Assembly: GCF_014696435.1 (NCBI RefSeq)
Contig: NZ_JACJQG010000012.1
Coordinates: 62,001-126,000, forward strand
Reading direction: 5' to 3'
DNA length: 64,000 nt
DNA from: Calothrix anomala FACHB-343
GTDB lineage: Bacteria > Cyanobacteriota > Cyanobacteriia > Cyanobacteriales > Nostocaceae
The translations under genes were made by a program, and so were the position numbers. Positions 1 to 54,778 of the stretch are shown here, piece after piece. Below the pieces are notes generated by a model that was given only the letters and a program-made list of their open reading frames with translations, ran no database searches and was not told the origin of the DNA. Each line of letters begins with the position of its first letter. Position 1 is the stretch's first letter.

Positions 1-884
1 AAACACAAGCAGACTATAGCCATAAATAATTTGGTAGGAAAGCCAATTACTGCTTGGGCGATAAAACTATTAATTTTTTCAATATCTCTGACTCTGCTTG
101 ATACTTCGCCACTACGACGGGCTTCATAGTATTTCAAAGGTAAATTTAAGATTTTTTGCCCAAATTCTAACATCAGCTTTAACTGTAAGCGTTGAGCAAA
201 ATTAGCAATCAGGATATTTTGCACTAACTCTAAGCTACTGTTAACAATGTGCATTACAATTACTGCTAATACTACAGATATTAGCAAATCGTAATCGCGG
301 CGGACTAACACATCATCAGTAAGAATCTGCACCAGGAAAGGAGAGGCTAAAGAAAGTAAGCCGATTAATTGGGAAATTACCAAGGCTTCTATAATCACAC
401 CTCGGTGTGGCAAAATACCCTGAATAAACTTTTCAAAAGTATTAACTTTGTCATCTGGTTCTGCAAAAAAACGATTTGCATCTGGTTGGAGTAATAAAAC
501 GACTCCATTTTGCCAACCCTCAATTAGTTCCTGCTGAGACAGATAACGAATACCTATTGCGGGATCGCCAATAATATATTGTTTACCACGCTGTCCATAC
601 AAAACTACCCAATGATATCCTTGCCAATGGATAATCGCAGGTAGTGGCATTTTTGAGAGATTTTTGAGAAAATTTTCTGATGCTTTGCCAGTTCGAGTAT
701 AAAGACCTAAAGCTTCTGTACCACGTCTTAAACCTAGCAAAGTAGTTCCCAGTTGACCGCTACCTATAGCTTCGCGGATACGGTTTATAGTTAAGTTACG
801 TCCATAAAATTTGAGAATAGACGCAACACAAGCTGCACCACAGTCTTCTTCACTGTGCTGCATTATAACTGGGTATTTCTTCAT
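1..884 (-). CDS. C39-peptidase ABC exporter (partial, runs off left edge)
   Basis: Peptidase-containing ABC transporter that would cleave double-glycine leader peptides and export the released peptide across the inner membrane. Translating the minus strand from the ATG at 884 gives MKKYPVIMQHSEEDCGAAC: the C39 peptidase motif with Gln9 (oxyanion hole) and catalytic Cys15, then His91 in GYHWVVLYG and Asp107 in IIGDPAIG. Residues from about 155 on are hydrophobic and match the type-1 ABC membrane domain (QLIGLLSLASPF, RRSGEVSSRVRDIEKI). The ATPase domain lies beyond the window. It is on the same strand as the peptide precursor at 1479-1679 and about 600 bp downstream of it, so the two are likely functionally linked. 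The family call is secure; the substrate is inferred. Confidence 0.93.
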   Translation of the reverse strand, partial: MKKYPVIMQHSEEDCGAACVASILKFYGRNLTINRIREAIGSGQLGTTLLGLRRGTEALGLYTRTGKASENFLKNLSKMPLPAIIHWQGYHWVVLYGQRGKQYIIGDPAIGIRYLSQQELIEGWQNGVVLLLQPDANRFFAEPDDKVNTFEKFIQGILPHRGVIIEALVISQLIGLLSLASPFLVQILTDDVLVRRDYDLLISVVLAVIVMHIVNSSLELVQNILIANFAQRLQLKLMLEFGQKILNLPLKYYEARRSGEVSSRVRDIEKINSFIAQAVIGFPTKLFMAIVCLC

Positions 885-1478
885 AGTTAAAATTTAGTTT
901 TTATGTGGCGATTGATCCTAAAAATTAAATGATTATATAGCTGTTATATTTGATATTGTAATTTTTCATGTCAAGTTTTTAACTTGAGTGTAGTTGATAT
1001 AGATAGTAGCAAGATAAAAACACTCAACAGACAGCTTTTTTCCCTAGCTCAACGAATGCAATAAACTTTCTTATATAATCGTAGCCGCGTTTTTTGGAAG
1101 TAGATTTTAATGAATTTTGATTAATAAATTTTTATTTTTAATATGTAAGAATCCAAAACCTAAACTAGTTAAGACATCAGCTGGCTGTAAATATTAGCTA
1201 AAAATATAGCTTTTACAACCAGCTAATGCTATTGTATGCATAAGCCATTAGATTAATAAGGCGATATAGAGTGCGGCTATCCCTATTAGCCGCGTCTCTT
1301 CCTCAAGCTTATGCGATCCATTTTCAATTACACCCAAGGGACTATTGGGACTGGCAAATCACAAAACATCCAAATTATTTTTTGTGGGATGGAATTTTTG
1401 TCTTTCCAAGGTAAGAATAAGACAAGATTCTTGCACCACAAAGTTAGATGATTGATTGTTGCTATACCCTTGCCTTGA
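885..1478. other. Intergenic region between peptide gene and exporter, with two inverted repeats
   Basis: No convincing gene is seen on either strand. Two stem-loops are visible: 1179-1190 pairs with 1213-1224 (12 bp, one mismatch, AGCTGG...CCAGCT) and 1273-1279 pairs with 1287-1293 (GCGGCTA/TAGCCGC, 7-nt loop). Neither is followed by a clear T-run, so they may be processing or attenuation structures in a peptide-exporter transcript rather than simple terminators. Confidence 0.5.
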
Positions 1479-1679
1479 TTAATGGTGAGGATGGGGAGGC
1501 TCGTAAGGTTTATGTACTGGGGGCTGGGGTGCTGGATGCCATTTCCACCATTTCTTCTTCAAAAGCAAACCCAGTAACAAGAAAGTACCACCAGAAATTG
1601 TTGCTTGATTTTCATCAGACAATTCAGAAAGGCAGCTTTCGTCAATAGACAACAATTTATTTTCAGAGTCGATCATCAT
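1479..1679 (-). CDS. Double-glycine leader peptide precursor (bacteriocin-like)
   Basis: A 66-residue precursor. Residues 1-31 form an acidic leader ending ELSDENQATISGG, the classic C39-peptidase recognition pattern, with cleavage expected after Gly31. The 35-residue core starts TFLLLGLLLKKKWWKW and ends in a Pro/His-rich tail (HPAPQPP...PPHPHH). The core has no Cys or Ser and only one Thr, so it is unlikely to be a lanthipeptide; it looks like an unmodified cationic amphipathic peptide with possible metal-binding histidines. AGGAAG lies a few bases before the ATG pair at 1676-1679, so the start is well supported. The C39 exporter is downstream on the same strand and an HlyD-type adaptor is divergent. 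Activity (antimicrobial, signal, or other) is not shown by sequence. Confidence 0.85.
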   Translation of the reverse strand: MMIDSENKLLSIDESCLSELSDENQATISGGTFLLLGLLLKKKWWKWHPAPQPPVHKPYEPPHPHH

Positions 1680-2545
1680 GATAAACTTCCTAATTTTGGA
1701 ATGTTAATTTTGATGTTGATGAGCCTTTAAACATTTTTATTAATTACAGATTTTAGAAAATTTATCTGCAAATAAACAAAAATGTTTGCATAACATAAAT
1801 TGCCAAAAGATTAAGCCAAAATGGCTATTTTTTTGAGCAATTACTGTTATTTCGTAAGCTCATGGCTATAAAACTACAGCATCTTCAAAAAAAAGTACAG
1901 TCTTTTTGAAGTTTTTAAATACCATGCTTTTAAGTAATAATTTAAGCATGATTTATTCAGCGATCATCGGCAGTCAACAATAAATATATATAGCGTTAAT
2001 AATTGATTATTAAAGGATTCCGCAGGTTTGAATATTTATCTTTTCACTAGTGATATTTCAATTATCTAATGTTTGTTTTTATACATAAAAACACGTTTAT
2101 TTGTTGTAAAAATAAAATATGAAATTTAATAAATTTTTGCCAACGATAAAAAAATATCCAGGATAATATATTTTTTTGTGATAGAAAAATAACGGTTCGC
2201 AAAGAAGAAATAATCTAAAGTTGTGATGTGGAAATGTGGGATTTTATTTGCAGGTACTTTAGTACTACAAATTAAGTGTGTGTAAAAATTTTGTTTAATT
2301 TTTTTAACTTATTGACTATATGATTAAATAACAAGTAGGCTGTACGACCATCACTTTTTGATGCCATAGTAGAAAAATTTTGCTAGATGGTTAGTCAAGA
2401 AAATAAATTTTGTTCCATATTTTTTAACCTATTGACTATATGCTTAAATAACAAAGAGGCTTTATCATCTCTGAGTTTTTGATGCAATAGCAGAGAAATG
2501 CTGTTTAATAGTTATTAAAAAAATAAATTTTTCATATCACAATAT
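1680..2545. other. Long AT-rich divergent intergenic region
   Basis: 866 bp separate the peptide gene (minus) from the receiver-HlyD gene (plus). The region is strongly AT-rich with no open frame worth calling. Its right third is an imperfect 120-bp tandem duplication, listed separately. It must hold the promoters for both directions, but no clear sigma-70 box can be singled out. No good Shine-Dalgarno precedes the ATG at 2546. Confidence 0.6.
2301..2540. repeat. Imperfect 120-bp tandem duplication upstream of receiver-HlyD gene
   Basis: Two consecutive units with a period of exactly 120 bp (2301-2420 and 2421-2540). Shared blocks include TATTGACTATATG, TTAAATAACAA, AGGCT, TTTTTGATGC and AAATAAATTTT at matching offsets, with scattered differences between. 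The second copy ends just before the start codon at 2546. The conserved TTGACTATATG block occurs once per unit and could be a duplicated promoter or operator element. Confidence 0.8.
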
Positions 2546-4522
2546 ATGATTAGAGTTTTGCTGGTTGATGACCAACAAGCTGTGAGAGATTACTTAAGAT
2601 CGTTGATTGAGAAAGAAACAGATCTTGAAGTAGTTGGTGTAGCAGATAATGGAAAGACTGCTATTACCAAAGTCGCTAATTTACAGCCGGATGTAGTGAT
2701 TATCGATATGGTAATGCCGGAGATGGATGGGATTAATGCGACAAAGATTATTAGTGAAAGATTTCCTAAAACAAAAGTTTTGGTATTAAGTGGTTATGAC
2801 AAGCATCAATATATCCAAGCATCGCTAAATGCGGGAGCAAGTGGTTATATACTCAAAGATGCATCGCCAGAAGAACTGAGAGATTCGATTCGTTTGGTTG
2901 AAAAAGGCTATACACAGTTAGCACCTGGTTTAATTAGTAAAATTATTCCGCAACAGCCAATATCGGATGGAGAAATTGTTAGTATTCAAAAAGTTTCGGA
3001 TGTTCAGAGTTCAGGAATAGTTCTTCAAGAAAGTACTCCTACTTTCTTGGATGTAATTCAAACAGAGGAACTTTTACCGAATACAACTCGTTGGGTAGAA
3101 GTAGGAGGGCTGTTTTTAATTGCAACTGTTGCTACAGGGGTAATTTTATCTGCGGTGATTCAATATAAAGTAGTTGTGAAAGCACCTGCAAATGTCCGTC
3201 CATCTGGAGAAATACGTTTAGTACAAGCAGCACAAGAAGGAACTGTGACAAAGATTCTTGTGCAAGAAAATCAAGTGGTGAAAGCACAAGATATTATCGC
3301 CGTTATTGATGATAGCCAACTACAAATTAAAAAAAGTCAGTTGCTAGGTAATATTCAGCAGAATGAGATGCAACTGATGCAACTGGATGGTCAAATTCGG
3401 GCTGTGGATAGACAAATAGTAGCAGAAACAGAGCGTAATCAAAGAGCGATCGCATCGGCGACAGCAGATTTACAACGCACCCAAAGAGAACATCAGCAAA
3501 CTACTGTATCAAGTAGCGGACAACTAGAAGAAGTTAAGGCGAATATTAAAATTGCTCAGGATGAATTACAAAAAGCCGAATTTGATTTTAAATCAATGCA
3601 AGCGAATTTGAAAGCCACAGAAGCAGCCTGGAAAGCGGCGAAACTGAAACGCGATCGCTATTTGAGTATTGCGACATCTGGCTCAATTTCTAAAAATCAA
3701 TTGGAAGAGGTGGAATTAGCATTAGAGCAGCAACAACAATCGTTATTATCACAAAAAGCAAGTTTAGAAGCTCAAAAGCAAGTTATTGAAAGACAACAAC
3801 AAGCTGTAGCAGCAGCTACTAGTAAATATAAACCAGCAGCCGCAGCAACTAATCCTAGTGATGCTATTCTGGCAATGGCTCAGGAAAAAATTGCCCAAGA
3901 ACGTGCTGCAGGTGCAGGAAGTTTAGCAAGATTGAAGCAAGAAGAAAACAGTTTGAAGCAACGAAAACTGGAAATTCAAAATACAATTAACAGTGCAAAA
4001 AAAGACTTAGGACAAATAGAAAAACAACTGCAATTAACAGTAATTCGTTCTCCGGAGACAGGAACTATTTTGAAGTTAGAACTGCGAAATCCGCAGCAAT
4101 TAGTACGCCCAGGAGAAGCGATCGCGCAAATAGCACCTTCTGAGGCTCCTTTGGTAGTCAAAGCTAATGTCAATGTCAAGGATATTAGCAAAGTAAAAGT
4201 TTGTAAATCGCCAAAAGTTGCTGATTGCCAAGAAGGTAAAGTGCAAATGCGAATTTCTGCTTATCCTTATCCAGATTACGGGATATTGCACGGTGCTGTG
4301 AGGAGTATTAGTGGGGATGTGATTGAACCTCAAAATAATGCTAGCGCTGCAACTGAAGCATATTATGAGGTGACTATTGAACCGGAAAAACTTTATTTAA
4401 AAAAAGGCGATCGCTCTTATCCTATTCAACCAGGAATGGAAGTAACGGCGGAAATTATTTCCCAAAAAGAAACTTTATTAACATTTATTCTGCGGAAAGC
4501 ACGGTTGCTGACTAATTTATAG
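2546..4522 (+). CDS. Receiver-domain/HlyD membrane-fusion protein fusion
   Basis: A single 658-residue frame joins two families. Residues 1-118 are a NarL-type receiver: acidic pair Asp8-Asp9, phosphoacceptor Asp54 in IIDMVMPEMDG, Ser82 and Lys104 (YILKDAS). After a linker of about 65 residues comes one membrane span (about 186-208, GGLFLIATVATGVILSAVI). Then follows an HlyD/membrane-fusion protein: a first half-lipoyl segment (QEGTVTKILVQENQVVKAQD), a long Gln/Lys/Glu-rich coiled coil (about 265-505), and the returning lipoyl and beta-barrel part (VIRSPETGTILKLELRNPQQLVRPGE). The topology fits a cytoplasmic receiver and periplasmic adaptor. It is divergent from the double-glycine peptide and C39 exporter, so it probably serves that type I system. 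No DNA-binding output domain is present. The architecture is certain from sequence; phosphorylation control of export is inferred. Confidence 0.92.
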   Translation: MIRVLLVDDQQAVRDYLRSLIEKETDLEVVGVADNGKTAITKVANLQPDVVIIDMVMPEMDGINATKIISERFPKTKVLVLSGYDKHQYIQASLNAGASGYILKDASPEELRDSIRLVEKGYTQLAPGLISKIIPQQPISDGEIVSIQKVSDVQSSGIVLQESTPTFLDVIQTEELLPNTTRWVEVGGLFLIATVATGVILSAVIQYKVVVKAPANVRPSGEIRLVQAAQEGTVTKILVQENQVVKAQDIIAVIDDSQLQIKKSQLLGNIQQNEMQLMQLDGQIRAVDRQIVAETERNQRAIASATADLQRTQREHQQTTVSSSGQLEEVKANIKIAQDELQKAEFDFKSMQANLKATEAAWKAAKLKRDRYLSIATSGSISKNQLEEVELALEQQQQSLLSQKASLEAQKQVIERQQQAVAAATSKYKPAAAATNPSDAILAMAQEKIAQERAAGAGSLARLKQEENSLKQRKLEIQNTINSAKKDLGQIEKQLQLTVIRSPETGTILKLELRNPQQLVRPGEAIAQIAPSEAPLVVKANVNVKDISKVKVCKSPKVADCQEGKVQMRISAYPYPDYGILHGAVRSISGDVIEPQNNASAATEAYYEVTIEPEKLYLKKGDRSYPIQPGMEVTAEIISQKETLLTFILRKARLLTNL

Positions 4523-4557
4523 TTGAGTGTTGATTGTTGACTGTTGACTGTTGATTG
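4523..4557. repeat. Heptamer short tandem repeat (TTGACTG type), 5 units
   Basis: Five consecutive 7-bp units of TTGA(C/T/G)TG directly after the stop codon of the receiver-HlyD gene. The same heptamer family recurs at about 10.26, 15.35, 33.5, 53.5 and 61.1 kb in this window and matches the STRR heptamers known from heterocystous cyanobacteria. Confidence 0.85.
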
Positions 4558-4876
4558 TATGAAAAATACAGCGTATTTCAGGAAAATGAGGTACGCGCTT
4601 CGGGGCATGGCAGTGCCAGTGCCCCTACAATAGACGATAATCTGTACCTCACCAACTTGCAATCTGCTGTATCTAGTATCAGCGAGAAGACTGCAGCGAT
4701 CGCGACTATTATTGAATGTCAGTCCCGCATCCGCGCCTGTTGTGGCTGTGTGGGACTTGTTTTTGTTGCAGATCAAAGTCTTCCTGTGGTTGCTCTGAAG
4801 CCTGATTTCATCAAAATACATCAATTTTTTATCGCGCACTCATGGCACAGTAAACACCATTGACTTGCAGCTTTAT
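4558..4876. other. Intergenic region with a dispersed repeat fragment
   Basis: No gene is called. An open frame over 4555-4863 lacks a recognisable product. The stretch around 4601-4680 (GGGGCATGGCAGTGCC..., CTGTACCTCACCAAC, CTGCTGTAT) is shared with 63723-63795 near the right end of the window, so this is dispersed repeat DNA rather than coding sequence. Confidence 0.6.
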
Positions 4877-4992
4877 CAAAAATTTGGGTCTAAAACCCCG
4901 TCTACTTCGGGTGTAGCTCTCAGTGCGCCGCTTCTAGGACAGCTTTATGTGTTTTGTGTTAACATAAAGATGTGGTTAATTGGTCGATACCC

Positions 4993-6165
4993 ATGATTGT
5001 TTACGAGTTTAAAGTTAAAGGGAAAGACAAGCAATATCAAGCGATAGATGAGGCTATCCGCACATCACAATTCATTCAAAACAAGTGCTTGCGCTATTGG
5101 ATGGATAACAAAGATGTGGGTAGATATGACCTCAATAAATACTGTGCAGTATTAGCCTCTGAATTTCCTTTTGCTGATGATTTGAACTCGATGGCTAGAC
5201 AATCTGCGGCTGAACGTTCTTGGAGTGCAATAGCTCGATTTCATGATAACTGTAAGAAGAAGATTAAGGGTAAAAAGGGTTTTCCGAAGTTTAAGAAAAA
5301 CTGCCGTTCTGTTGAGTATAAATCAACTGGATGGAAGCTTTCAGTAAATCGAAAAGCCATAACTTTCTCGGACAAAAAAGGTATTGGAACCCTGAAATTA
5401 AAGGGAACCTACGACCTGAATTACTATGACATCAAACAGATTAAGCGAGTGCGCTTAGTTCGTCGTGCTGATGGGTATTATGCCCAATTTGCAATAGATA
5501 TTAATGTCAGGATAGAAACTCAACCGACTAATCAAGTGGTTGGTATTGACTTGGGGTTAAAATACTTCATTGCTGACAATAAAGGCAATATTGAACCATC
5601 GCCCCAGTTCTACCGCAAATCAGAGAAACAGTTAAACCGAGCCAACCGCAAGAAGTCTAAAAAGTTCAGTTTAGCCAAAAGGAAAGCCAAACAACGGCAA
5701 TCAAACAATTACCACAAAGCTAGAAATAGATATGCTCGGAAACATTTAAAAGTAAGTAGGCAACGAAAAGAGTATTGCAAGAGACTAGCATACTCCGTCA
5801 TCCAATCTAACGATTTGGTAGCCTATGAAGATTTAAATGTCAAAGGGCTGGTAAAAAATCGACATCTAGCTAAATCCATCTCTGATGCTGGTTGGTACAC
5901 TTTTCGCAGTTGGTTAGAGTATTTTGGGCATAAATATAGAAAGGCAACTGTTGCAGTGCCTCCCCATAACACAAGCCAAGACTGCTCTAACTGTGGCTCT
6001 AAAGTGAGAAAATCTCTGTCCACCAGGACTCATGTTTGTCCTCATTGCGGATATGTGGAGGATAGGGATATCAATGCAGCAATTAACATTTTGAGACTAG
6101 GACTCAGTACCGTGGGGCACACGGGAACTTACGCTACAGGAGATTTGCCACGCCACTTGCTTTAA
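4993..6165 (+). CDS. tnpB: RNA-guided nuclease TnpB (IS200/IS605 family)
   Basis: TnpB, the RuvC-type nuclease ancestral to Cas12 that in studied IS605 elements uses an omega RNA from the element's right end. From the ATG at 4993 it is 390 residues; an upstream in-frame ATG at 4972 would add seven residues lacking family similarity. RuvC acidic residues are all present: Asp186 (VVGIDLGLKYF), Glu279 (VAYEDLNVKG) and Asp359 (EDRDINAAINIL). The zinc ribbon is intact (CSNC...CPHC). The frame stays open for 36 more codons after the TAA at 6163-6165 and encodes a tail (AGEPVQRSG..., SWAVGVTLLSNGES...), so this stop may be recent, or the tail may reflect RNA constraint. It appears catalytically competent. 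Confidence 0.93.
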   Translation: MIVYEFKVKGKDKQYQAIDEAIRTSQFIQNKCLRYWMDNKDVGRYDLNKYCAVLASEFPFADDLNSMARQSAAERSWSAIARFHDNCKKKIKGKKGFPKFKKNCRSVEYKSTGWKLSVNRKAITFSDKKGIGTLKLKGTYDLNYYDIKQIKRVRLVRRADGYYAQFAIDINVRIETQPTNQVVGIDLGLKYFIADNKGNIEPSPQFYRKSEKQLNRANRKKSKKFSLAKRKAKQRQSNNYHKARNRYARKHLKVSRQRKEYCKRLAYSVIQSNDLVAYEDLNVKGLVKNRHLAKSISDAGWYTFRSWLEYFGHKYRKATVAVPPHNTSQDCSNCGSKVRKSLSTRTHVCPHCGYVEDRDINAAINILRLGLSTVGHTGTYATGDLPRHLL

Positions 6166-6280
6166 GCCGGGGAACCCGTCCAACGCAGTGGCTCCTCTTG
6201 GGCGGTTGGGGTAACCCTGCTGTCTAACGGCGAGTCGTTGAATGTAGAAGCCCCGCCCTTATAGGGCGGTGGAGTGTCAA
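6166..6280 (+). ncRNA. Putative omega RNA scaffold / right end of TnpB element
   Basis: In characterised IS605-family elements the guide RNA for TnpB is made from the 3' part of tnpB and the right end, with the guide being the flanking DNA past the terminal TCAA. Here the segment after the tnpB stop is GC-rich and structured, with a terminal hairpin at 6251-6270 and TCAA at 6277-6280. The guide would then start ATCCTCAAATTGCTG. The assignment rests on position and structure only; no transcript boundary can be seen. Confidence 0.45.
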
Positions 6281-6543
6281 ATCCTCAAATTGCTGAAGAT
6301 AACGGATTTACCTGAAAAAAATTTTAACTTTGTCCGGTGAAATACAATAAAGTGTGTTAACAAAGGTGATTTACGACAAATACAAAACTGGTGAAATAGT
6401 TGGGAAATGAGATGCTCGAAGGAGCAAGATTATTAAGGGTAGATAAATTAATCTATTTAATTAACTGCCCGATAAGATGGGAAACCTTTTGGTTTACTTG
6501 ATCAATCAAGTAATGAATTCGTAAGTATGAGGTATAGGTTTTA

Positions 6544-8244
6544 ATGCCACTGCCTATTGTGTCTGTTCCGATAAAGAAAACCAAGAAACCGTCTTTGCTG
6601 CTGATACTGTCTTGTGCTTGGATATTAATAGGTTTAGGAAGTGCGGCATATTGGCTATTAACTCGGTTTCAACTATTGTCTCGAGATTTGCCAGTAGGTG
6701 CCACAATTATTCCTCAAGATGCTTTATTGACGGTTTCTTTAACTACAGATCCGAAACAATGGCAGCAATTGCGACAGTATGGGACAAAAGAAACCCAAGC
6801 AGAACTGGATCGAAATTTAGTGAAGCTGCGCGATCGCTTTTTGACTAATAATGGTTATGATTTCCAAAAAGATATTCAACCTTGGGTAGGTAATGAAGTC
6901 ACTTTAGCAATTCTCGCACCCCAAGCTAGTCAACCGCCACCTAAACCAGTTTCGACTAACGCAGAGGCTTTTGGTAGCCAGCAGTCGATGGTGATGGTTC
7001 TGCCAATCAAAAACCCAGAAAAGGCGAAAAGCCTGTTAGCACAACCGAAAACTTTAAAACAAAGTCAATGGATTGACCGCACATATCAGGGTTTTACAAT
7101 TAAACAAACTGATGGTCAAACTGGGGAAAATATTTCCGCTACAGTATTAAATGGGCAATTCTTAATTATTACTGATAATCCCAAAGCTACAGAAAGAGCA
7201 ATTGATGCTTATAAAAATAAAACTTCCTTAGCTAATACAGCCGGATTCGCATCCAACTTGCCGAAAATTGCTAATTATCAACCTTTTGCTCAGTTTTATA
7301 TTAATGTACCCACAGCTGCGAGGATAGCCGCAGCAGCACCCAACCGCCAATTACCTGCCCAAGTTTTGGCGCAATTGCAAAATAATCAAGGTTTGGCAGG
7401 GACAATTAACTTAGAACCAGAAGGAATACGTTTAAAAGGCGTTTCTTGGCTAAATCCGAATAGTCAGCGAGTGCTGGCAGTGGAAAATAACGCTGGGAGA
7501 ATGCAAAGCCTAGTCCCTGCTGAAACCTTAATGATGCTTTCTGGTGGGAATTTACAAAGGCTGTGGGATGACTATGAGAGAACATCGCGAGGAAATCCCC
7601 AGTCGCCAATTATCCCCGAACAATTACGAGGTGGAGTGAAATCCCTGACAACCCTGGATTTGGATCGGGATTTGCTGCGGTGGATGAAAGGCGAGTTTTC
7701 TTTATCGGTAATTCCCAACACCCCAAAAGATGCGGCGACAGCAGATTTTCGGGCTGGATTGCTGTTTATGGTACAGGCAAGCGATCGCAATTTAGCGGAA
7801 GCATCCATCAAACAGCTTGATGAAGTGATGAAAAATCAATACCAGTTCCAAATTAAACCCGCTACGGTTGCAGGTAAAACCGTTACCAACTGGGTTGCGC
7901 CTTATGGTACTTTAACGGCTACTCATGGCTGGTTAGATGGAGACATTGCTTTTTTAATCGTGGGTGCGCCAATTGCCGATAAAATCGTTCCCAAGCCTAG
8001 TATTACTTTAGCTAGCACCATACCTTTTAAACAAACAGTACCGACAGAACCCAATCCCACAAACGGTCAATTTTTCTTGGATGTAGAACAGACAGCGAAA
8101 AATTTCCCTTTACCAAGTTTATTTCCTAATCAACAAACTTGGTTAGCTGCCACCCGTTCGATTGGTGTAACAACAGCTGTCAGCGATAATCGCAGTACCC
8201 GCTATGATATATTTTTCGCCCTGAAGAAAGCGGATCGTTCTTAG
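6544..8244 (+). CDS. DUF3352 domain membrane-anchored protein
   Basis: A 566-residue protein with one N-terminal membrane anchor (about residues 17-40, SLLLILSCAWILIGLGSAAYWLL) and a large extracytoplasmic part. It matches the cyanobacterial DUF3352 family as I recognise it: the opening LPVGATIIPQDALLTVSLTTDPKQWQQL, a PWVGNEVTLAIL motif and a repeated two-lobed layout. No catalytic residues are known for the family and the function is undefined. The ATG at 6544 is the only sensible start. The gene stands alone, with no close operon partner; a block of short repeats follows it. Confidence 0.85.
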   Translation: MPLPIVSVPIKKTKKPSLLLILSCAWILIGLGSAAYWLLTRFQLLSRDLPVGATIIPQDALLTVSLTTDPKQWQQLRQYGTKETQAELDRNLVKLRDRFLTNNGYDFQKDIQPWVGNEVTLAILAPQASQPPPKPVSTNAEAFGSQQSMVMVLPIKNPEKAKSLLAQPKTLKQSQWIDRTYQGFTIKQTDGQTGENISATVLNGQFLIITDNPKATERAIDAYKNKTSLANTAGFASNLPKIANYQPFAQFYINVPTAARIAAAAPNRQLPAQVLAQLQNNQGLAGTINLEPEGIRLKGVSWLNPNSQRVLAVENNAGRMQSLVPAETLMMLSGGNLQRLWDDYERTSRGNPQSPIIPEQLRGGVKSLTTLDLDRDLLRWMKGEFSLSVIPNTPKDAATADFRAGLLFMVQASDRNLAEASIKQLDEVMKNQYQFQIKPATVAGKTVTNWVAPYGTLTATHGWLDGDIAFLIVGAPIADKIVPKPSITLASTIPFKQTVPTEPNPTNGQFFLDVEQTAKNFPLPSLFPNQQTWLAATRSIGVTTAVSDNRSTRYDIFFALKKADRS

Positions 8245-8258
8245 GAAGGGGGACAAAC

Positions 8259-8380
8259 AATTCAAAATTCAAAATTCAAAATTCAAAATTAGGAATTATA
8301 TTTAACTCTTGACTCTTACCCAATGCCCAATGCCCAATGCCCAATGCCCAATGCCCCATGCCCAATGCCCAATGCCCAAT
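8259..8380. repeat. Two short tandem repeat blocks (ATTCAAA and CCCAATG)
   Basis: 8259-8290 holds repeats of the ATTCAAAA unit, and 8319-8380 holds about eight copies of the heptamer CCCAATG with a CCCCATG variant. They sit between the DUF3352 gene and ccsA. Related CCCAATG/CCCCATG arrays occur at 19.3, 31.3, 40.1 and 48.5 kb. Confidence 0.9.
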
Positions 8381-8450
8381 ATAACCGCTAAACAGATAGG
8401 ATCAGAACAGTCAGAATAAATAATTAAAGAATGACTGGGGAGAACACTTT

Positions 8451-9506
8451 ATGAATCTGGTTGTACTCCAGAACTGGCTGGATAATGCTTCCTTTGCTGT
8501 CTTATTCCTCACTATGCTGGTGTATTGGGTAGGGGCGGCTTTTCCGAATCTGCCGGCCTTTGCTGCTTTGGGGACAGCTGGAATGGCGATCGCTAATTTG
8601 TGTATAGCTACCTTATTAGGGGCGCGATGGATCGAAGCTGGCTATTTTCCCCTGAGTAATTTGTATGAATCGCTGTTTTTCTTGACTTGGGGGATTACGA
8701 CAATTCATTTGATTGCCGAAAATTCTAGTCGCAGTCGCTTGGTGGGTGTGGTTACTGCGCCTGTGGCGATGGGGATTACAGCTTTTGCGGCTTTAACATT
8801 ACCATCGCAAATGCAAGTGTCAGAACCTTTGGTACCGGCACTCAAGTCTAACTGGCTGATGATGCACGTAAGTGTGATGATGTTAAGTTACGCTACTTTG
8901 ATGGTGGGTTCTTTGTTAGCGATCGCATTTCTTATTGTCACTCGCGGTCAAAATATCCAACTCCAAGGCAGTTCTGTTGGTACTGGTGGCTATCGCAGCA
9001 ATGGTTATAAGTTACGCAAAGCCGGTGAATTAGTCACAGAACCACAAGTACCTGCGGCGGATAATAATGGTTTTGTGCGCTACGAAAGCAATAGTAATGG
9101 CAATGGTAAAACCGCCGTTTTAGATTTAGTTACTGCACCTCAATCAGAAACTATTACATCTGCTGAACCTCTTTCACCTCAGCGTCTAAATTTAGCTGAA
9201 ACTCTAGATAACATCAGTTATCGCATTATTGGTTTGGGATTTCCTTTATTAACAATTGGAATTATTGCTGGTGCGGTTTGGGCTAATGAAGCATGGGGTT
9301 CTTATTGGAGTTGGGACCCGAAAGAAACTTGGGCATTAATTACTTGGTTATTTTTTGCGGCTTATCTTCATGCGAGAATTACTCGTGGTTGGCAAGGTCG
9401 TCGTCCGGCAATTTTAGCGGCTAGTGGTTTGGTGGTAATTTGGATTTGCTATTTGGGTGTGAATCTTTTAGGTAAGGGTTTACATTCTTACGGTTGGTTT
9501 TTCTAA
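8451..9506 (+). CDS. ccsA: Cytochrome c biogenesis protein CcsA (Ycf5; also named CcsB/ResC type)
   Basis: System II cytochrome c maturation: works with Ccs1 to move haem and attach it to apocytochromes on the lumenal/periplasmic side, supplying cytochromes f, c6 and c550. The 351-residue protein has multiple membrane spans and the diagnostic tryptophan-rich haem-handling motif [18 protein letters not shown] (about residues 282-299), with conserved histidines before and after ([28 protein letters not shown]). A hydrophilic, Asn/Gly-rich stretch of about 75 residues (about 165-240) separates the N- and C-terminal spans, as in other cyanobacterial copies. Databases name this WWD protein either CcsA or CcsB; the symbol follows the chloroplast usage. 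No partner ccs1 gene is adjacent. Confidence 0.92.
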
Positions 9507-9513
9507 GGAATTT

Positions 9514-9543
9514 ATCCCTTTCTCTGGTAGCGGAGAAGGGGAT
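9514..9543 (+). terminator. Putative terminator after ccsA
   Basis: ATCCCTTTCTC (9514-9524) pairs with GAGAAGGGGAT (9533-9543) around an 8-nt loop, with one mismatch, and is followed by a T-rich tract (TTTATTTTTT). It lies 8 bp past the ccsA stop. Confidence 0.6.
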
Positions 9544-9637
9544 GATTTATTTTTTAAACGCAGAGTATCGCGGAGTTAAGCGCAAAGTAACGCAGATTTT
9601 TGAGGAGATTAGATTCTGTATTTAGTTGTGAATAAAT

Positions 9638-10258
9638 ATGGTTCAAATTCCAGTTCAGAAATTAAGTTTTGCAGATTTTTTAGAACAGTATCCTGATGGT
9701 TCTGGGATTTATGAATTGGTAAATGGAGAGATTATCAAAGTGGAACCGACTAGGGCGCATAAGAATGTAGCAAGATTTATTATGTTGGGCTTTAATGATG
9801 AAATTAGGCGCTTAAATCTTGACTATATTGCTGATAAAGATGTGGTTGTGAGAACATTTTCAACTACGGGGGAAGAACAAGGTAGAAATCCTGATGTGGG
9901 TGTAGTTAAAGCATCTCAGTGGAATAGTAATGTGCTAGCTTATGGGGCGTTAATTGAGCCGATTCAACTGGCTGTAGAAGTGACTTCAACTAATTGGGAT
10001 GATGATTATATTGATAAATTAGATGAGTATCAACGCCTTGGTATTCTTGAATATTGGATTGTGGATTATTTAGCCATTGCTTCTCGTGCTTATCTCGGTA
10101 ATCCTAAACTACCTACGGTGTTTGTTTATCAATTAATTGATGGACAATATCAAGTGCAAAAGTTTACAGGTAATGACCGAATTATCTCTGTCACTTTCCC
10201 AGAATTACAAATTACTGTTAAACAAATTGTAGATTCTAGTCAAATCCAAAAACTTTAA
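9638..10258 (+). CDS. Uma2 family (DUF820) PD-(D/E)xK endonuclease-like protein
   Basis: A 206-residue member of the Uma2/DUF820 family, which is greatly expanded in cyanobacteria and carries a restriction-endonuclease-like fold of unknown biological substrate. The family layout is clear: FLEQYPDGSGIYELVNGEIIKVEPT near the N-terminus, then RNPDVGVV (the PD), then IQLAVEVTSTNWDDDYIDKLDEY with the catalytic Glu and Lys, then LGILEYWIVDY. All candidate active-site residues are intact. It stands alone between ccsA and a small minus-strand gene. Many members occur as isolated single genes near mobile DNA; the role here is unknown. Confidence 0.88.
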   Translation: MVQIPVQKLSFADFLEQYPDGSGIYELVNGEIIKVEPTRAHKNVARFIMLGFNDEIRRLNLDYIADKDVVVRTFSTTGEEQGRNPDVGVVKASQWNSNVLAYGALIEPIQLAVEVTSTNWDDDYIDKLDEYQRLGILEYWIVDYLAIASRAYLGNPKLPTVFVYQLIDGQYQVQKFTGNDRIISVTFPELQITVKQIVDSSQIQKL

Positions 10259-10263
10259 TTATA

Positions 10264-10300
10264 ACTGTTGACTGTTGACTGTTGACTGTTGACTGTTGAC
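10264..10300. repeat. Heptamer short tandem repeat (ACTGTTG), 5 units
   Basis: Five perfect ACTGTTG units directly after the Uma2 stop codon; same family as the arrays at 4.5 and 61.1 kb. Confidence 0.9.
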
Positions 10301-10393
10301 AGGCTAGAAAGCATTTATTGTCAGGGTTTTATCTTAGCTTAATGTTCTAATTTATCTGACTACAGCTATTTTATTTTATAATAAACGACTGTT

Positions 10394-10645
10394 TTACCAC
10401 TTCAAATAAGCAGCGTCTATTCCTTGTTCGCGCTTAATTTTGCTATCTTTTTCAAACCAAGCAATTACTTGTGCTGTGGTTAATTCTTCTATAGTCACAC
10501 CATATTCTTGGGCGATATGTTTTAAAAGCTTCAGGGATGAAATTGTTAATCTTGTTAAAAATTTTTCTGAAGAAGATAACAAAGCTGCGTCTACTTTTGC
10601 AGACTCTTCCAAATTTAAAAATTGTTCTGATGGAGAATTTGTCAT
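10394..10645 (-). CDS. Small hypothetical protein
   Basis: An 83-residue protein starting MTNSPSEQFLNLEESAKVDAALL. It is predicted to be mostly helical, with no signal peptide or membrane span. The C-terminal half (IAQEYGVTIEELTTAQVIAWFEKDSKIKREQG) looks like a short helix-turn-helix or a small alpha-helical module, but no family can be named. The start codon lies next to a heptamer array. Composition and codon use look like real coding sequence, and the plus-strand frame opposite looks less natural. The role is unknown. Confidence 0.6.
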   Translation of the reverse strand: MTNSPSEQFLNLEESAKVDAALLSSSEKFLTRLTISSLKLLKHIAQEYGVTIEELTTAQVIAWFEKDSKIKREQGIDAAYLKW

Positions 10646-10646
10646 T

Positions 10647-10750
10647 GGTCAGTAGTCAGTAGTCAGTGGTCAGTGGTCAGTGGTCATTATATCTTCCTTG
10701 TCCTCCCTGTCCTCCTTGTCCTCCTTGTCCTCCTTGTCCCCCTTGTCCTT
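10647..10750. repeat. Short tandem repeat blocks (GTCAGT and TTGTCCTCC) between small gene and sufR
   Basis: 10647-10686 is an array of (G/A)GTCAGT heptamers; 10694-10750 is an array of about six 9-bp TTGTCCTCC units. The second array runs up to and just overlaps the sufR stop codon at 10749-10751. Confidence 0.9.
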
Positions 10751-11429
10751 ATTCCCGCGCTTGGACTAAGTATCCACAACGATGCTCACCATTTATAATC
10801 CAGTGGGTGCGCTCGACTGTACAATCGGGGAGGACGGCGGCGAACATTTCTAGTTCATGACCGCAAACGCTAGGAAAGGATTCGGCAACATTAGAAATAG
10901 CACATTTATGCTCGATGAAGAGAAAGCGATCGCTCTTTTTGGAATCATCAGGCTCTACAGCATGATACTCTGCCATGAAGCCTTCTGCTTTTCTAAATTC
11001 CACTAAGTTGGCGACTCGTTCTTTAAGGGAACCGTTACCCAGGCGATCGCGATATTCTTGGGCTTTGCGTTCCCATTGTTTTTGTAAAATGGTTTTAACT
11101 TGGTCTTTACCTACGGTTTCTGCTAAAGTATCCAGCAGGGAAACAGCAAAATTTCCGTAACTATCACCCAAGCGATCGCTATCTTGACGATACAGGCGAT
11201 CGCGTCCTCTAGAACTCAGTTGATATACATGCTGCGGTCTCCCCATCCCCGCTTGTACCATTGTTGAATATAAAATTAACTCTTCCGCCTCCAAATCTTT
11301 AAGATGGCGGCGAATCGCTTGTGGACTAATATCCAACACTTCGGCTAGCTCAAAAGCGGTGGCTTGTGAGTGTTTCAGGAGATACTCTAGAATATCTTGC
11401 TTCGTTGAGGACTGGTGGGTAGTCGTCAT
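10749..11429 (-). CDS. sufR: Iron-sulfur cluster regulator SufR
   Basis: A DeoR/winged-helix repressor of the suf operon that senses Fe-S status through its own cluster. The 226-residue protein has an N-terminal winged HTH (TKQDILEYLLKHSQATAFELAEVLDISPQAIRRHLKDLE is the recognisable segment) and the four-cysteine signature CX12CX13CX14C in the C-terminal quarter, exactly as described for cyanobacterial SufR; the first Cys is in HKCAIS and the last in EHRC. It is divergent from sufBCDS, and two CAAC-N6-GTTG palindromes lie between. This allows autorepression and control of sufB. The stop codon abuts a 9-bp repeat array. Confidence 0.97.
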   Translation of the reverse strand: MTTTHQSSTKQDILEYLLKHSQATAFELAEVLDISPQAIRRHLKDLEAEELILYSTMVQAGMGRPQHVYQLSSRGRDRLYRQDSDRLGDSYGNFAVSLLDTLAETVGKDQVKTILQKQWERKAQEYRDRLGNGSLKERVANLVEFRKAEGFMAEYHAVEPDDSKKSDRFLFIEHKCAISNVAESFPSVCGHELEMFAAVLPDCTVERTHWIINGEHRCGYLVQARE

Positions 11430-11488
11430 CTTCTCTGCTAGACGCTGCGCGAACGTCTCAAAAAATTTATTTGAAAATTTGACTTTAA

Positions 11489-11502
11489 CAACATTGTTGT
11501 TG
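11489..11502. promoter_or_regulatory. SufR operator 1 (CAAC-N6-GTTG)
   Basis: CAACATTGTTGTTG matches the CAAC-N6-GTTG palindrome reported as the SufR site in Synechocystis. It lies 60 bp upstream of the sufR start, on the sufR side of the divergent region, and probably mediates autorepression. Confidence 0.85.
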
Positions 11503-11533
11503 TTAATCTAGCGTAAAATGAAGATAAGTTAAA

Positions 11534-11547
11534 CAACATGCTTGTTG
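11534..11547. promoter_or_regulatory. SufR operator 2 (CAAC-N6-GTTG)
   Basis: CAACATGCTTGTTG, a second perfect half-site pair within the longer symmetric AAACAACATGCTTGTTGTTT. It lies 45 bp from operator 1 (centre to centre) and 127 bp before the sufB ATG, so it is placed to repress sufB transcription. Confidence 0.85.
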
Positions 11548-11673
11548 TTTTATTCTCCATCCTTATTCTAACAGCCGTGTAACCACTCTGTAACCCCAGA
11601 TGGGAATCGGCTACAAAACAAGTCCGTCTCCCATCCTTGAAGAGATTTTCACGAACACGAGAGATTACTACCG

Positions 11674-13113
11674 ATGAGCGCCACTGTCAAAACCTTAGTC
11701 AACCAACCTTACAAGTACGGCTTTGTCACTGATATTGAAGCCGACACTATTCCGCGTGGACTAAACGAGGACATTATCCGCTTGATATCCGCCAAGAAGA
11801 ACGAGCCGGAATTCATGCTGGAGTTTCGCCTCAGAGCGTATCGCCAGTGGCTGAAAATGACAGAACCAACTTGGCCTAATGTCAAGTATCCCCCCATAGA
11901 TTATCAGGATATCATCTACTATTCCGCGCCGAAACAGAAAAAACAAAAGCTGGAAAGTTTGGATGAGGTAGATCCCACTCTCCTAGAAACCTTTGAGAAG
12001 CTAGGTATTCCCTTATCTGAACAAAAGCGTCTAGCCAACGTCGCTGTTGATGCAATTTTTGATAGCGTTTCTGTCGCCACTACATTTAAGGAAAAGCTAG
12101 CTAAAGATGGCGTGATTTTCTGTTCGATTTCTGAAGCACTGCGGGAACATCCAGAACTGATCAAAAAATATCTGGGTAGCGTTGTTCCAGTAGCTGATAA
12201 TTATTTTGCGGCTTTGAATGCTGCTGTATTTAGCGATGGTTCTTTTGTCTATATTCCTAAAGGCGTAAAATGCCCAATGGAACTGTCTACCTACTTCCGC
12301 ATCAACTCTGGTGATACGGGACAATTTGAGCGCACGTTGATTGTGGCTGAAGAAGGTAGCTATGTTTCCTACCTGGAAGGTTGTACCGCGCCAATGTATG
12401 ACAGCAACCAACTCCATGCGGCAGTTGTGGAATTGGTAGCGTTAGATAATGCGGAAATTAAATATTCCACAGTGCAAAACTGGTACGCTGGTGATGCTAA
12501 CGGCAAAGGTGGAATTTATAACTTTGTAACCAAGCGCGGTTTGTGTCAGGGTGTGAATTCTAAGATTTCCTGGACGCAAGTAGAAACAGGTTCAGCTATT
12601 ACTTGGAAGTATCCTAGCTGTGTGTTGGTGGGTGATAATTCTGTGGGTGAATTTTACTCGGTGGCGCTGACAAATAATATGCAGCAAGCTGACACCGGGA
12701 CTAAGATGATTCATGTCGGGAAAAATACTCGCAGTACAATTATTTCTAAGGGTATCTCTGCTGGTAACTCTAGTAACAGCTATCGCGGTTTGGTGAAGGT
12801 TAATCCGAAAGCTGAAGGCGCGAGAAACTATTCCCAGTGCGACTCGATGCTGATTGGCGATAATGCCCATGCCAATACTTTCCCTTATATTCAGGTACAA
12901 AATAATACTGCGAAGGTAGAGCATGAGGCTTCGACTTCTAAGATTGGCGAAGATCAGTTATTCTACTTTGCGCAACGAGGGATTTCTGCGGAAGATGCTG
13001 TTTCGATGATGATTAGCGGCTTCTGTAAGGATGTGTTTAATCAGCTACCGATGGAATTTGCAGTAGAAGCTGATAAGTTATTGAGCCTGAAGTTAGAAGG
13101 TTCTGTTGGGTAA
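11674..13113 (+). CDS. sufB: Fe-S cluster assembly scaffold SufB
   Basis: Core scaffold subunit of the SufBCD complex, on which Fe-S clusters are built for photosystem I and other plastid-type targets. The 479 residues match the SufB family in full: [20 protein letters not shown] near the middle-left, [16 protein letters not shown], the beta-helix stretch [19 protein letters not shown], and the C-terminal [26 protein letters not shown] with the Cys in SGFCKDVF. First gene of sufBCDS under two SufR operators. A 105-bp spacer with a purine-rich GAAGAG run separates it from sufC. No irregularity is seen. Confidence 0.98.
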
Positions 13114-53531: not shown

Positions 53532-54649
53532 CTAATGGGTAAACTAATATTTACAGTTGTTTCTTGTTTGTAAACGCTGCTAATTGAGAATTGCCCACCA
53601 TAACGTTCAACGATTTTTTTAACTAAATTTAAGCCCATACCTAAGCCTTGCTGTTCATAGGTTTTGCGCTCAAATTGCATGAAAGCAGCAATTTTAGAAA
53701 TCTGTTCTGCTGTCATTCCCCGTCCCCAATCGTGAACGTAGACATTGAGCATTCCTGAATCTACTTGACTAGTAATCTTGATGGCTGTCCCCGGTTGGGA
53801 GAATTTCAAGGCATTATCCACTAATTCATAGAGGATAATTGCGAGATATTCAGCTGATATTGACACTTCAGCCTCGGCGATCGCAAACATTAGATCGTGA
53901 TTGCGATTTAAACTGCGAGCCAGAGCTTGCAAAGGTGGAGCGATCGCGGCTAGAGAAAATTTAGTTGACTGCGGTTTGCTAATCGGCTTTTTCGGCGTTG
54001 ATAGTTCAAATTCTAAATAAATCAACAATTTTTGCGTTAATTTTTCTAGCCTTCGTGCGGATTCATCAGCCCAGCCTAGTAATTCTCGAATTTCCTCAGT
54101 ATGCATATTTTCCAGATCGGCTATGAGGAGGTTGAGGGTACCGACGATACCATGTAGCGGTGTATTCAGTTCATGGGGTACAGTCACAGCTAAATTACCG
54201 CGCAGTTCATTCAGGGTATTTTCTAAAAATTTAATACTATTAGCTTGGATATTCGCTAAATTTTGAATTTTATCGTACTGTTGCTTAATTCTCAGCATAG
54301 ACTGAACACGTGCCCGTAATTCTACTTGATTTACAGGCTTACTAATAAAGTCTTCAGCACCCGTATCTAAGCAACGAGCTAGGTCTTCTTTGCCTGTGAG
54401 CGCAGTTACCATAATGATGGGAACTGACTGCCATTGAGGAATGGCTTTAATTTTTCGGCAAACTTCGATACCATCCATTCCTGGCATCATGACATCGAGC
54501 AAAATTACATCTGGCTGAAATAAGTTGAGTGAGGCGATCGCTTGTTGACCGCTGGCAGCGTAATGTAACAAATAATCTTGTTCGCTTAATAGCGTTTCAA
54601 TCACATCAAAGTTATCGGGGTCATCATCAATGACTAAAATAGAAGGCAT
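53525..54649 (-). CDS. Receiver-histidine kinase protein
   Basis: 374 residues from the ATG at 54649 (MPSILVIDDDPDNFDV); a TTG five codons upstream lies in repeat DNA. It starts with a receiver (Asp phosphoacceptor in VILLDVMMPGMDG, Lys in FISKPV), then a short linker, a HisKA-type segment VTVPHELNTPLHGIVGTLNLL and HATPase_c with ELVDNALKF, DWGRGMT and GLGMGLNLVKKIVERYGG. No membrane span or separate sensor domain is present, so it would act as an intermediate in a phosphorelay. It lies between the giant hybrid kinase (upstream) and the degenerate kinase, all on the minus strand. Confidence 0.92.
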   Translation of the reverse strand: MPSILVIDDDPDNFDVIETLLSEQDYLLHYAASGQQAIASLNLFQPDVILLDVMMPGMDGIEVCRKIKAIPQWQSVPIIMVTALTGKEDLARCLDTGAEDFISKPVNQVELRARVQSMLRIKQQYDKIQNLANIQANSIKFLENTLNELRGNLAVTVPHELNTPLHGIVGTLNLLIADLENMHTEEIRELLGWADESARRLEKLTQKLLIYLEFELSTPKKPISKPQSTKFSLAAIAPPLQALARSLNRNHDLMFAIAEAEVSISAEYLAIILYELVDNALKFSQPGTAIKITSQVDSGMLNVYVHDWGRGMTAEQISKIAAFMQFERKTYEQQGLGMGLNLVKKIVERYGGQFSISSVYKQETTVNISLPISC

Positions 54650-54657
54650 ATTAATAA

Positions 54658-54778
54658 AATTCAAAATTCAAAATTCAAAATTCAAAATTCAAAATTTCCC
54701 AACGATTGTTGACTATTCTAGAGACGCGATGAATCGCGTCTCTACAAGATAGACGCGATGAATTGCGTCTCTACAATT
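54658..54778. repeat. ATTCAAA repeats and AGACGCGATGAATCGCGTCT hairpins
   Basis: 54658-54697 holds four TTCAAAATTCAAA-type units. 54719-54776 holds two hairpins of GACGCGAT(G)AATCGCGTC. The same double hairpin occurs at 62105-62177. Confidence 0.85.

Follow-up and report, generated by a model that had tools for sequence, protein, structure and literature searches.

A single open reading frame of the window, i.e. of the whole 64,000-nucleotide stretch of Calothrix anomala FACHB-343 DNA that was analysed, joins a response-regulator receiver to the adaptor of an export machine. The encoded protein of 658 aa (positions 2546-4522 of the forward strand, ATG start) is composed of a NarL/LiaR/DesR-type receiver, a linker predicted to be disordered, one membrane span and an HlyD-type adaptor, and it is the product of a real, conserved gene. 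With a probability of roughly one half, phosphorylation of D54 at the cytoplasmic foot of this adaptor may control export after translation, either up or down.

The receiver domain (residues 1-118, positions 2546..2899) was delimited by Pfam, where Response_reg matched residues 4-115 with 100.7 bits at a cut-off of 30.2, by the fold of the AlphaFold2 model, by Foldseek and by dN/dS. Its active-site residues are the acidic pocket D8/D9 (2567-2572), the predicted phospho-acceptor D54 (2705-2707), S82 (2789-2791) and K104 (2855-2857). The frame, Pfam and these residues agree with the complete NarL-type receiver that the initial annotation had placed in one frame. By sequence, the nearest solved receivers are those of LiaR/VraR and DesR, and the nearest in NCBIfam belong to MctR, UvrY/GacA and NarL, all scoring below their whole-protein cut-offs. 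The cytoplasmic linker (residues 119-181, 2900..3088), mostly disordered according to pLDDT, leads to the only predicted span (residues 187-205, 3104..3160), registered by the simple hydropathy scan that was used for membrane spans throughout. The rest of the protein (3161..4519) is the adaptor with its lipoyl part, alpha-hairpin (residues 257-496, 3314-4033), beta domains (residues 499-643, 4040-4474) and C-terminal helix, all encoded, like the preceding parts, on the plus strand. Pfam HlyD_3 was found at residues 499-630 (47.4 bits, cut-off 22.2), and a lipoyl-like stretch at residues 226-255 scored just below its threshold (26.5 vs 29.8). Against TIGR01843, the NCBIfam model of type I secretion adaptors, the protein reached 145.8 bits at a cut-off of 208.65; judging by these scores it is related to that family without formal membership. 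The PDB sequence match for the adaptor part was 8dck.

The AlphaFold2 model, built on an alignment of 32 sequences from the window and the fetched loci, has a pLDDT of about 92 in the receiver and below 50 at residues 135-183, and it continues with a helix at residues 182-204, a hairpin of 240 residues and then the beta domains. Mean pLDDT of the whole model is 81, and its pTM of only 0.41 makes the relative placement of the domains unsure. In Foldseek the receiver lay close to LiaR, DesR and VraR (1.2-1.8 A), and the adaptor found EmrA, MacA and AcrA by E-value with poor superposition of the whole (rmsd 27-54 A, TM of the target 0.32-0.48 among the matches listed). It is the combination of span, lipoyl part, hairpin, beta domains and HlyD_3 above its cut-off, registered by Pfam, the model and Foldseek, that identifies the adaptor as HlyD-type, and the earlier description of a single span followed by a membrane-fusion protein is borne out by hydropathy, HlyD_3 and the model alike.

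Pfam registered only receiver, HlyD and lipoyl families in this protein, with neither a LuxR-type helix-turn-helix nor a PilZ domain, and since no DNA-binding domain is seen by Pfam, the fusion itself probably does not act as a transcription factor. This circumstance, together with the permissive topology, could speak for a signal running in the opposite direction, so that the state of adaptor or transporter alters phosphorylation of the receiver and reports export activity to the kinase network. However, no kinase of the NarL-partner type was found in 46 loci by phmmer with one query, a weak search that other kinase types could escape, and we consider such reporting very improbable.

Whole-protein search gave full-length matches without stops in 7/9 genomes of the genus, with identity of 76-100% when the window genome is included. 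The six further copies, among them those of Calothrix brevissima NIES-22, Nostoc linckia FACHB-104 and N. carneum NIES-2107, are intact and 76-94% identical. In all seven genomes the fusion lies between a conserved gene of 207-215 aa and a DUF3352 gene; in the other two (G381 and G393) the same flanking genes directly adjoin each other and the fusion is missing. Separate receiver and adaptor genes were seen at this place in none of the nine genomes by gene order, which rules out two genes misread as one, and no stop interrupts residues 118-186 in seven genomes, which rules out an assembly artefact or a hidden stop. Both outcomes had been named in advance as able to overturn the proposal, and neither was observed. 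The mean dN/dS over the seven orthologues is 0.093 for the receiver, 0.212 for the adaptor and 0.469 for the linker (here residues 119-180). The receiver is therefore the slowest-evolving and most constrained part, and the residues D, D, D, S and K are kept in the window fusion and all six orthologues. Complete absence of the gene from two genomes of the genus would suit a neutral or erroneous fusion, originating from a missed stop, an assembly error or a recent accident, but the seven stop-free copies, dN/dS far below 1 and the many further adaptors that have this architecture already contradict it, leaving this explanation hardly any probability.

The window begins with the 5' part of a divergently oriented gene (1..884, minus strand; L130:10738-12885) for a 715-aa ABC transporter of the order C39 - ABC_membrane - ABC_tran, the remainder of this peptidase-containing gene being upstream of the window. 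A double-glycine-leader peptide precursor of 66 aa is encoded at 1479..1679, also on the minus strand. C39 domains cut such leaders after GG. In the NIES-22 counterpart the leader is kept through SGGTF ('...CLSELSDENQSTISGGTF') and the sequence diverges beyond it; the peptide frame looks real, fits a secreted peptide with conserved leader and is a likely substrate of the divergent C39 transporter. Such a transporter and a double-glycine peptide frame accompany the fusion in 2/7 genomes, the window genome and NIES-22 (G388), and are absent from its vicinity in 5/7. Thus, peptide export as the output, assumed in the initial annotation, has a neighbourhood link in these two genomes only, while the other five have no adjacent peptide exporter. 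Strain FACHB-104 (G391) has elsewhere in its genome a C39 transporter without adjacent adaptor (L340), which might be the partner of its fusion, though this is speculation.

A sequence of about 120 bp stands in two diverged direct copies (2285..2532, plus strand) directly before the start codon of the fusion, where direct repeats of 60 and 57 nt with a spacing of 120-121 nt and identity of 80% and 74% were registered. Rfam gave no match in positions 1-12000 of the window, and the tRNA scan of the window gave none. Directly downstream of the fusion, at 4972-6165, there is a gene for a TnpB-type RNA-guided endonuclease (NCBIfam guided_TnpB, 267.7 bits); in NIES-22 no TnpB-type frame is present between the fusion and the DUF3352 gene. 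Further receiver matches are located at about 54302-55140 of the minus strand in large frames of 380 and 1760 aa (G000 C24:116302-116643 and 116799-117140), which possibly represent a hybrid signalling protein and are unlinked to the fusion.

The search for receiver-HlyD architectures and their neighbours that had been suggested at the outset revealed many such proteins beside several kinds of exporters, and the idea that the window fusion is a one-off was rejected, as the same architecture occurs on many other adaptors in the sampled genomes. A second fusion of the same genome (L131:2417-4237, G000 contig 112), with a receiver at 4-114, a predicted span at 205-223 and HlyD_D23, stands directly before a DUF3492 glycosyltransferase of PelF type. 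Its relatives are spread over four family groups (f1, f8, f20, f32) within the order, the receiver being absent or degenerate in some orthologues: 25 out of 388 genomes of the order matched the L131 protein at 1e-40 or better, and checking their open reading frames gave a receiver in 17; in 2 (G193, G037) it is degenerate, and in 6 no receiver was detected. With a fusion of genome G135 as a query, 22/27 genomes of its family matched at 1e-60, many through plain adaptors and others through receiver fusions; G135 itself has at least six envelope-protein fusions, including five adaptors and one Wzz-like protein. In L276:4426-6384, among glycosyltransferase genes, a receiver is joined to a part that matches Wzz only weakly (19.9 bits against a cut-off of 25.5).

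As to the neighbours, HetC-like, NHLM-type and PelF-like are labels which we take to suit their Pfam and neighbour content. Short C39 transporters are directly upstream of the fusion in L134 and L219 and nearby in L218 and L231; HetC-like C39 transporters of 878-1039 aa were found at the fusion loci L221-L228, L275, L278, L280 and L281, all of which (12/12 by phmmer) also have a third gene. An NHLM-type transporter pair stands beside the fusion of L270, a MacB/FtsX permease beside that of L229, and an RND pump beside that of L277 (Pfam ACR_tran) and, only by resemblance of the neighbour, L279. The restriction to peptide exporters implied in the initial annotation must therefore be abandoned, since fusions also adjoin an RND pump, a MacB permease and PelF-like EPS genes. 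For the fusions of L220, L268, L271-L273 and L283 neither of the two transporter types tested, ABC and C39, was detected among the neighbours. Three frames for double-glycine-leader peptides (L218:1315-1521, 1684-1869 and 2946-3221, minus strand, genome G162) lie between the C39 transporter and the fusion of that locus.

A HetC-type query matched 64 of 386 genomes of the phylum at 1e-50, and among the matches listed only the window protein and that of G607, which belongs to another order of the class and has one frame with both receiver and adaptor, reach into the receiver; four long frames examined (L310, L316, L321, L322) have no receiver. The initial annotation thought similar fusions possible in other Nostocales; they do occur in sampled relatives and are not confined to the order of the window genome. 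In the genome-collection scan the best 80 of 258 loci contained three full-length fusions, all from the genus, and no frame with both receiver and adaptor in the remaining 77. Among the plasmid matches listed (25 of 1735 matching records) two places covered at least 80% of the query, one having no receiver and the other being a degenerate Chondrocystis protein. Outside Cyanobacteria no receiver-adaptor fusion was seen either in these best 80 of 258 loci or among these plasmid matches. Since fused proteins served as queries for both the genomes and the receivers, the sample is biased towards relatives of fused receivers.

Within the sample, the fused receivers have as their nearest relatives receiver - linker - span proteins of 224-375 aa having no adaptor (L248, L251, L256, L263, L272:7202-8065, L286-L290, L292-L300, L302, L303). 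The linkers of these proteins are in many cases coiled-coil-like by eye, and L299 has an additional C-terminal part.

The final receiver tree comprised 86 of 144 pooled receivers (41 fused, 21 from receiver-span proteins and 24 from DNA-binding regulators) over 120 columns, a length that leaves its inner forks weak. Among the 58 receivers dropped were truncated copies of loci already present, rows more than 90% identical to a kept row, receivers of neither class (CheB-like L012, judged by eye, and single-domain or cut ones), long-branch LuxR rows (L019, L031, L034, L035) and the degenerate fused L180 and L182; rows L056-L075 (Chloroflexi and one Methylobacter) were thinned to six. All 62 tethered rows, fused and span-ending, lie on one side of a branch apart from the DNA-binding receivers. 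Its support is moderate (94/86, 92% of 200 bootstrap trees), and the boundary of this clade is provisional because the sample was drawn with fused queries. In the first tree (96 rows, most of the dropped rows included) all 43 fused rows fell into a clade of 49, whose other members were five receiver-span proteins and, on a long branch, the CheB-like row. Partner types are mixed within the tethered clade (16 changes over 11 types, minimum possible 10), with supported cross-type joins such as that of L134 (short PCAT) with L229 (MacB), 100/99, and that between two PelF types and the window type, 98/88. Strict inheritance of receivers with the exporter type was rejected by the monophyly constraint for the short-PCAT type C (p-AU 0.008), weakly for the HetC-like type D (0.036) and not for the PelF type B (0.261).

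The adaptor tree, obtained by a quick search, contained 89 rows: 62 plain adaptors, 21 with a receiver and 6 with another extension. The receiver label needs 10 changes on it, 7 of which supported branches make unavoidable; the window type, for which L050 and L051 stand, falls inside the plain adaptors. Since the receivers are one-sided and their adaptors scattered, the simplest reading would be that a single receiver lineage was captured several times by different adaptors, with some losses. The span begins at median residue 49 in the 62 plain rows vs 214 in the 21 with a receiver; in two fused proteins (L175, L176) the hydropathy scan registered no span above the threshold.

To count phosphorylation sites, the whole site was defined as D/E, D/E, D, S/T and K at positions 8, 9, 54, 82 and 104, and 54 distinct fused receiver sequences were used, 53 of them on adaptors and one on a Wzz-like protein; a separate set of 42 frames includes duplicates of the same gene. 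The whole site is kept in 50/54 fused receivers, the exceptions being L177, L180, L182 and L226, K104 is kept in 54/54, and 19/21 receiver-span proteins also have the whole site. BAZ47135.1, a protein of a Chondrocystis NIES-4102 plasmid with no annotation beyond 'HlyD family secretion protein', has a degenerate receiver (18.5 bits, Pfam cut-off 30.2). With site residues missing from four of the 54 and this degenerate homologue, phosphorylation is not needed in every member. Pseudo-receivers are known, CikA being an example, and the four exceptions together with the Chondrocystis remnant might suggest that the receiver is a constitutive interaction or dimerisation module, its phosphorylation being incidental; the prevalence of whole sites, the invariant K104 and the strongest constraint of the protein falling on the window-type receiver make this quite unlikely.

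Based on these data one can propose the following way in which phosphorylation would control export. The periplasmic adaptor of an ABC-type exporter would have received, on its cytoplasmic end, a receiver from the membrane-tethered family, and D54 would be phosphorylated by a histidine kinase encoded elsewhere. In LiaR, VraR and DesR phosphorylation promotes receiver pairing, and the same may happen here, as these are the nearest structural relatives. Adaptors work as oligomers around the transporter; for this reason pairing, or docking on the cytoplasmic domains of the transporter, could shift assembly or substrate engagement and in this way change export. Predicted disorder of the linker favours such pairing or docking at the adaptor's foot over rigid coupling across the membrane. 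The likely cargo in the window genome and NIES-22 would be the adjacent double-glycine-leader peptide, exported through the adjacent C39 transporter, and the remaining five genomes would have to rely on a transporter gene located elsewhere. Control of export is supported by the intact fusion in seven of nine genomes, its constrained receiver, the prevalence of whole sites, export machinery among the neighbours and both trees. Two likenesses point the same way: passages of PMC8277102 describe cytoplasmic regions of adaptors as essential, and those of PMC8461298 offer a precedent in Alg44. Against it count the five genomes of the genus with no adjacent transporter, several other fusions at which none was detected, the lack of a match to the one kinase query in the 46 loci, the four fused receivers with lost site residues and the related receiver-span proteins that have no adaptor.

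These same five genomes, in which the fusion persists beside no exporter, could be better understood if the receiver were a membrane-docked partner of kinase complexes, the adaptor being mainly an anchor or envelope sensor and the output being phosphate flow or localisation rather than export. The predicted disorder of the linker suits such docking as well, and the 21 adaptor-less receiver-span proteins among the nearest sampled relatives indicate that tethering may serve something other than export. An anchor alone, however, poorly explains why adaptors of several kinds of exporters, many of them encoded next to their transporter, captured the receiver, and the adaptor is itself constrained (dN/dS 0.21), so we regard docking without export control as unlikely.

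Compared with HlyD/TIGR01843 adaptors, the window fusion has the same span, lipoyl part, long hairpin and beta domains but, in place of their short N-terminus, the receiver and linker. With LiaR, VraR and DesR of the NarL/FixJ type it shares receiver sequence, fold and the full active site, differing by an envelope adaptor instead of the LuxR-type DNA-binding domain. Plain adaptors of cyanobacterial C39/HetC-like transporters are about 41-56% identical in the adaptor part, among the matches listed outside the genus fusions, and have no receiver. The assertion that membrane-fusion proteins usually have a short N-terminus is true for plain relatives (median of 48 residues before the span), but passages of PMC8277102 report that the adaptors used by ABC transporters and in type I secretion have sizable cytoplasmic domains, without which substrates are not recognised and assembly does not take place. 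Two-component control of tripartite and type I exporters is presented in those passages as control of gene expression.

A receiver-HlyD fusion was not found described in the titles and opening lines of abstracts listed by searches of open-access PubMed Central text, which cannot prove its absence, nor in term-matched passages of PMC4971617, PMC8277102, PMC8461298, PMC13125312, PMC10781874 and PMC12487129. In this respect the claim that no such system had been described agrees with the searches, but its logic of domain, span and adaptor has a counterpart working with c-di-GMP. As passages of PMC8461298 have it, Alg44 of Pseudomonas aeruginosa also consists of a cytoplasmic N-terminal regulatory domain, one span and a periplasmic membrane-fusion domain and is controlled after translation via c-di-GMP. 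Unlike the fusion, it binds c-di-GMP by PilZ, has the polymerase Alg8 as a partner and no receiver. Alg44 is an analogue only in the way it works, nearer to the PelF-linked L131 fusion; the window protein would be a peptide-exporter version. Within open-access PubMed Central text the parts are known, and their combination and the shared receiver lineage are new.

More broadly, and tentatively, at a little less than even odds, Cyanobacteria may own a distinct branch of two-component systems, in which receivers are tethered to the membrane, ending with a span or fused to adaptors, and histidine kinases directly gate export of peptides, export by multidrug (RND) and MacB-type pumps and that of exopolysaccharides, bypassing transcription, the module having moved repeatedly between unrelated exporters. 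If so, the kinase would act on the finished export machine, faster than through new transcription, and phospho-control would gain what Alg44 gives to c-di-GMP. One lineage serving many exporters predicts a shared rule, testable by point mutants in culturable cyanobacteria, and such receivers might find use as detachable modules for controlling secretion.

A different long N-terminal extension with a motif like LRGLLCGYSPxxIA was observed on adaptors of family f20 beside C39 transporters (L135:7631-9655, L137:9040-11181, L138, L139, L140, L230 and L232). It matched no Pfam family in L135, L137 and L138, and on the adaptor tree six adaptors of this type group into a single clade. Alongside receivers, this extension represents another type of cytoplasmic module for such adaptors.
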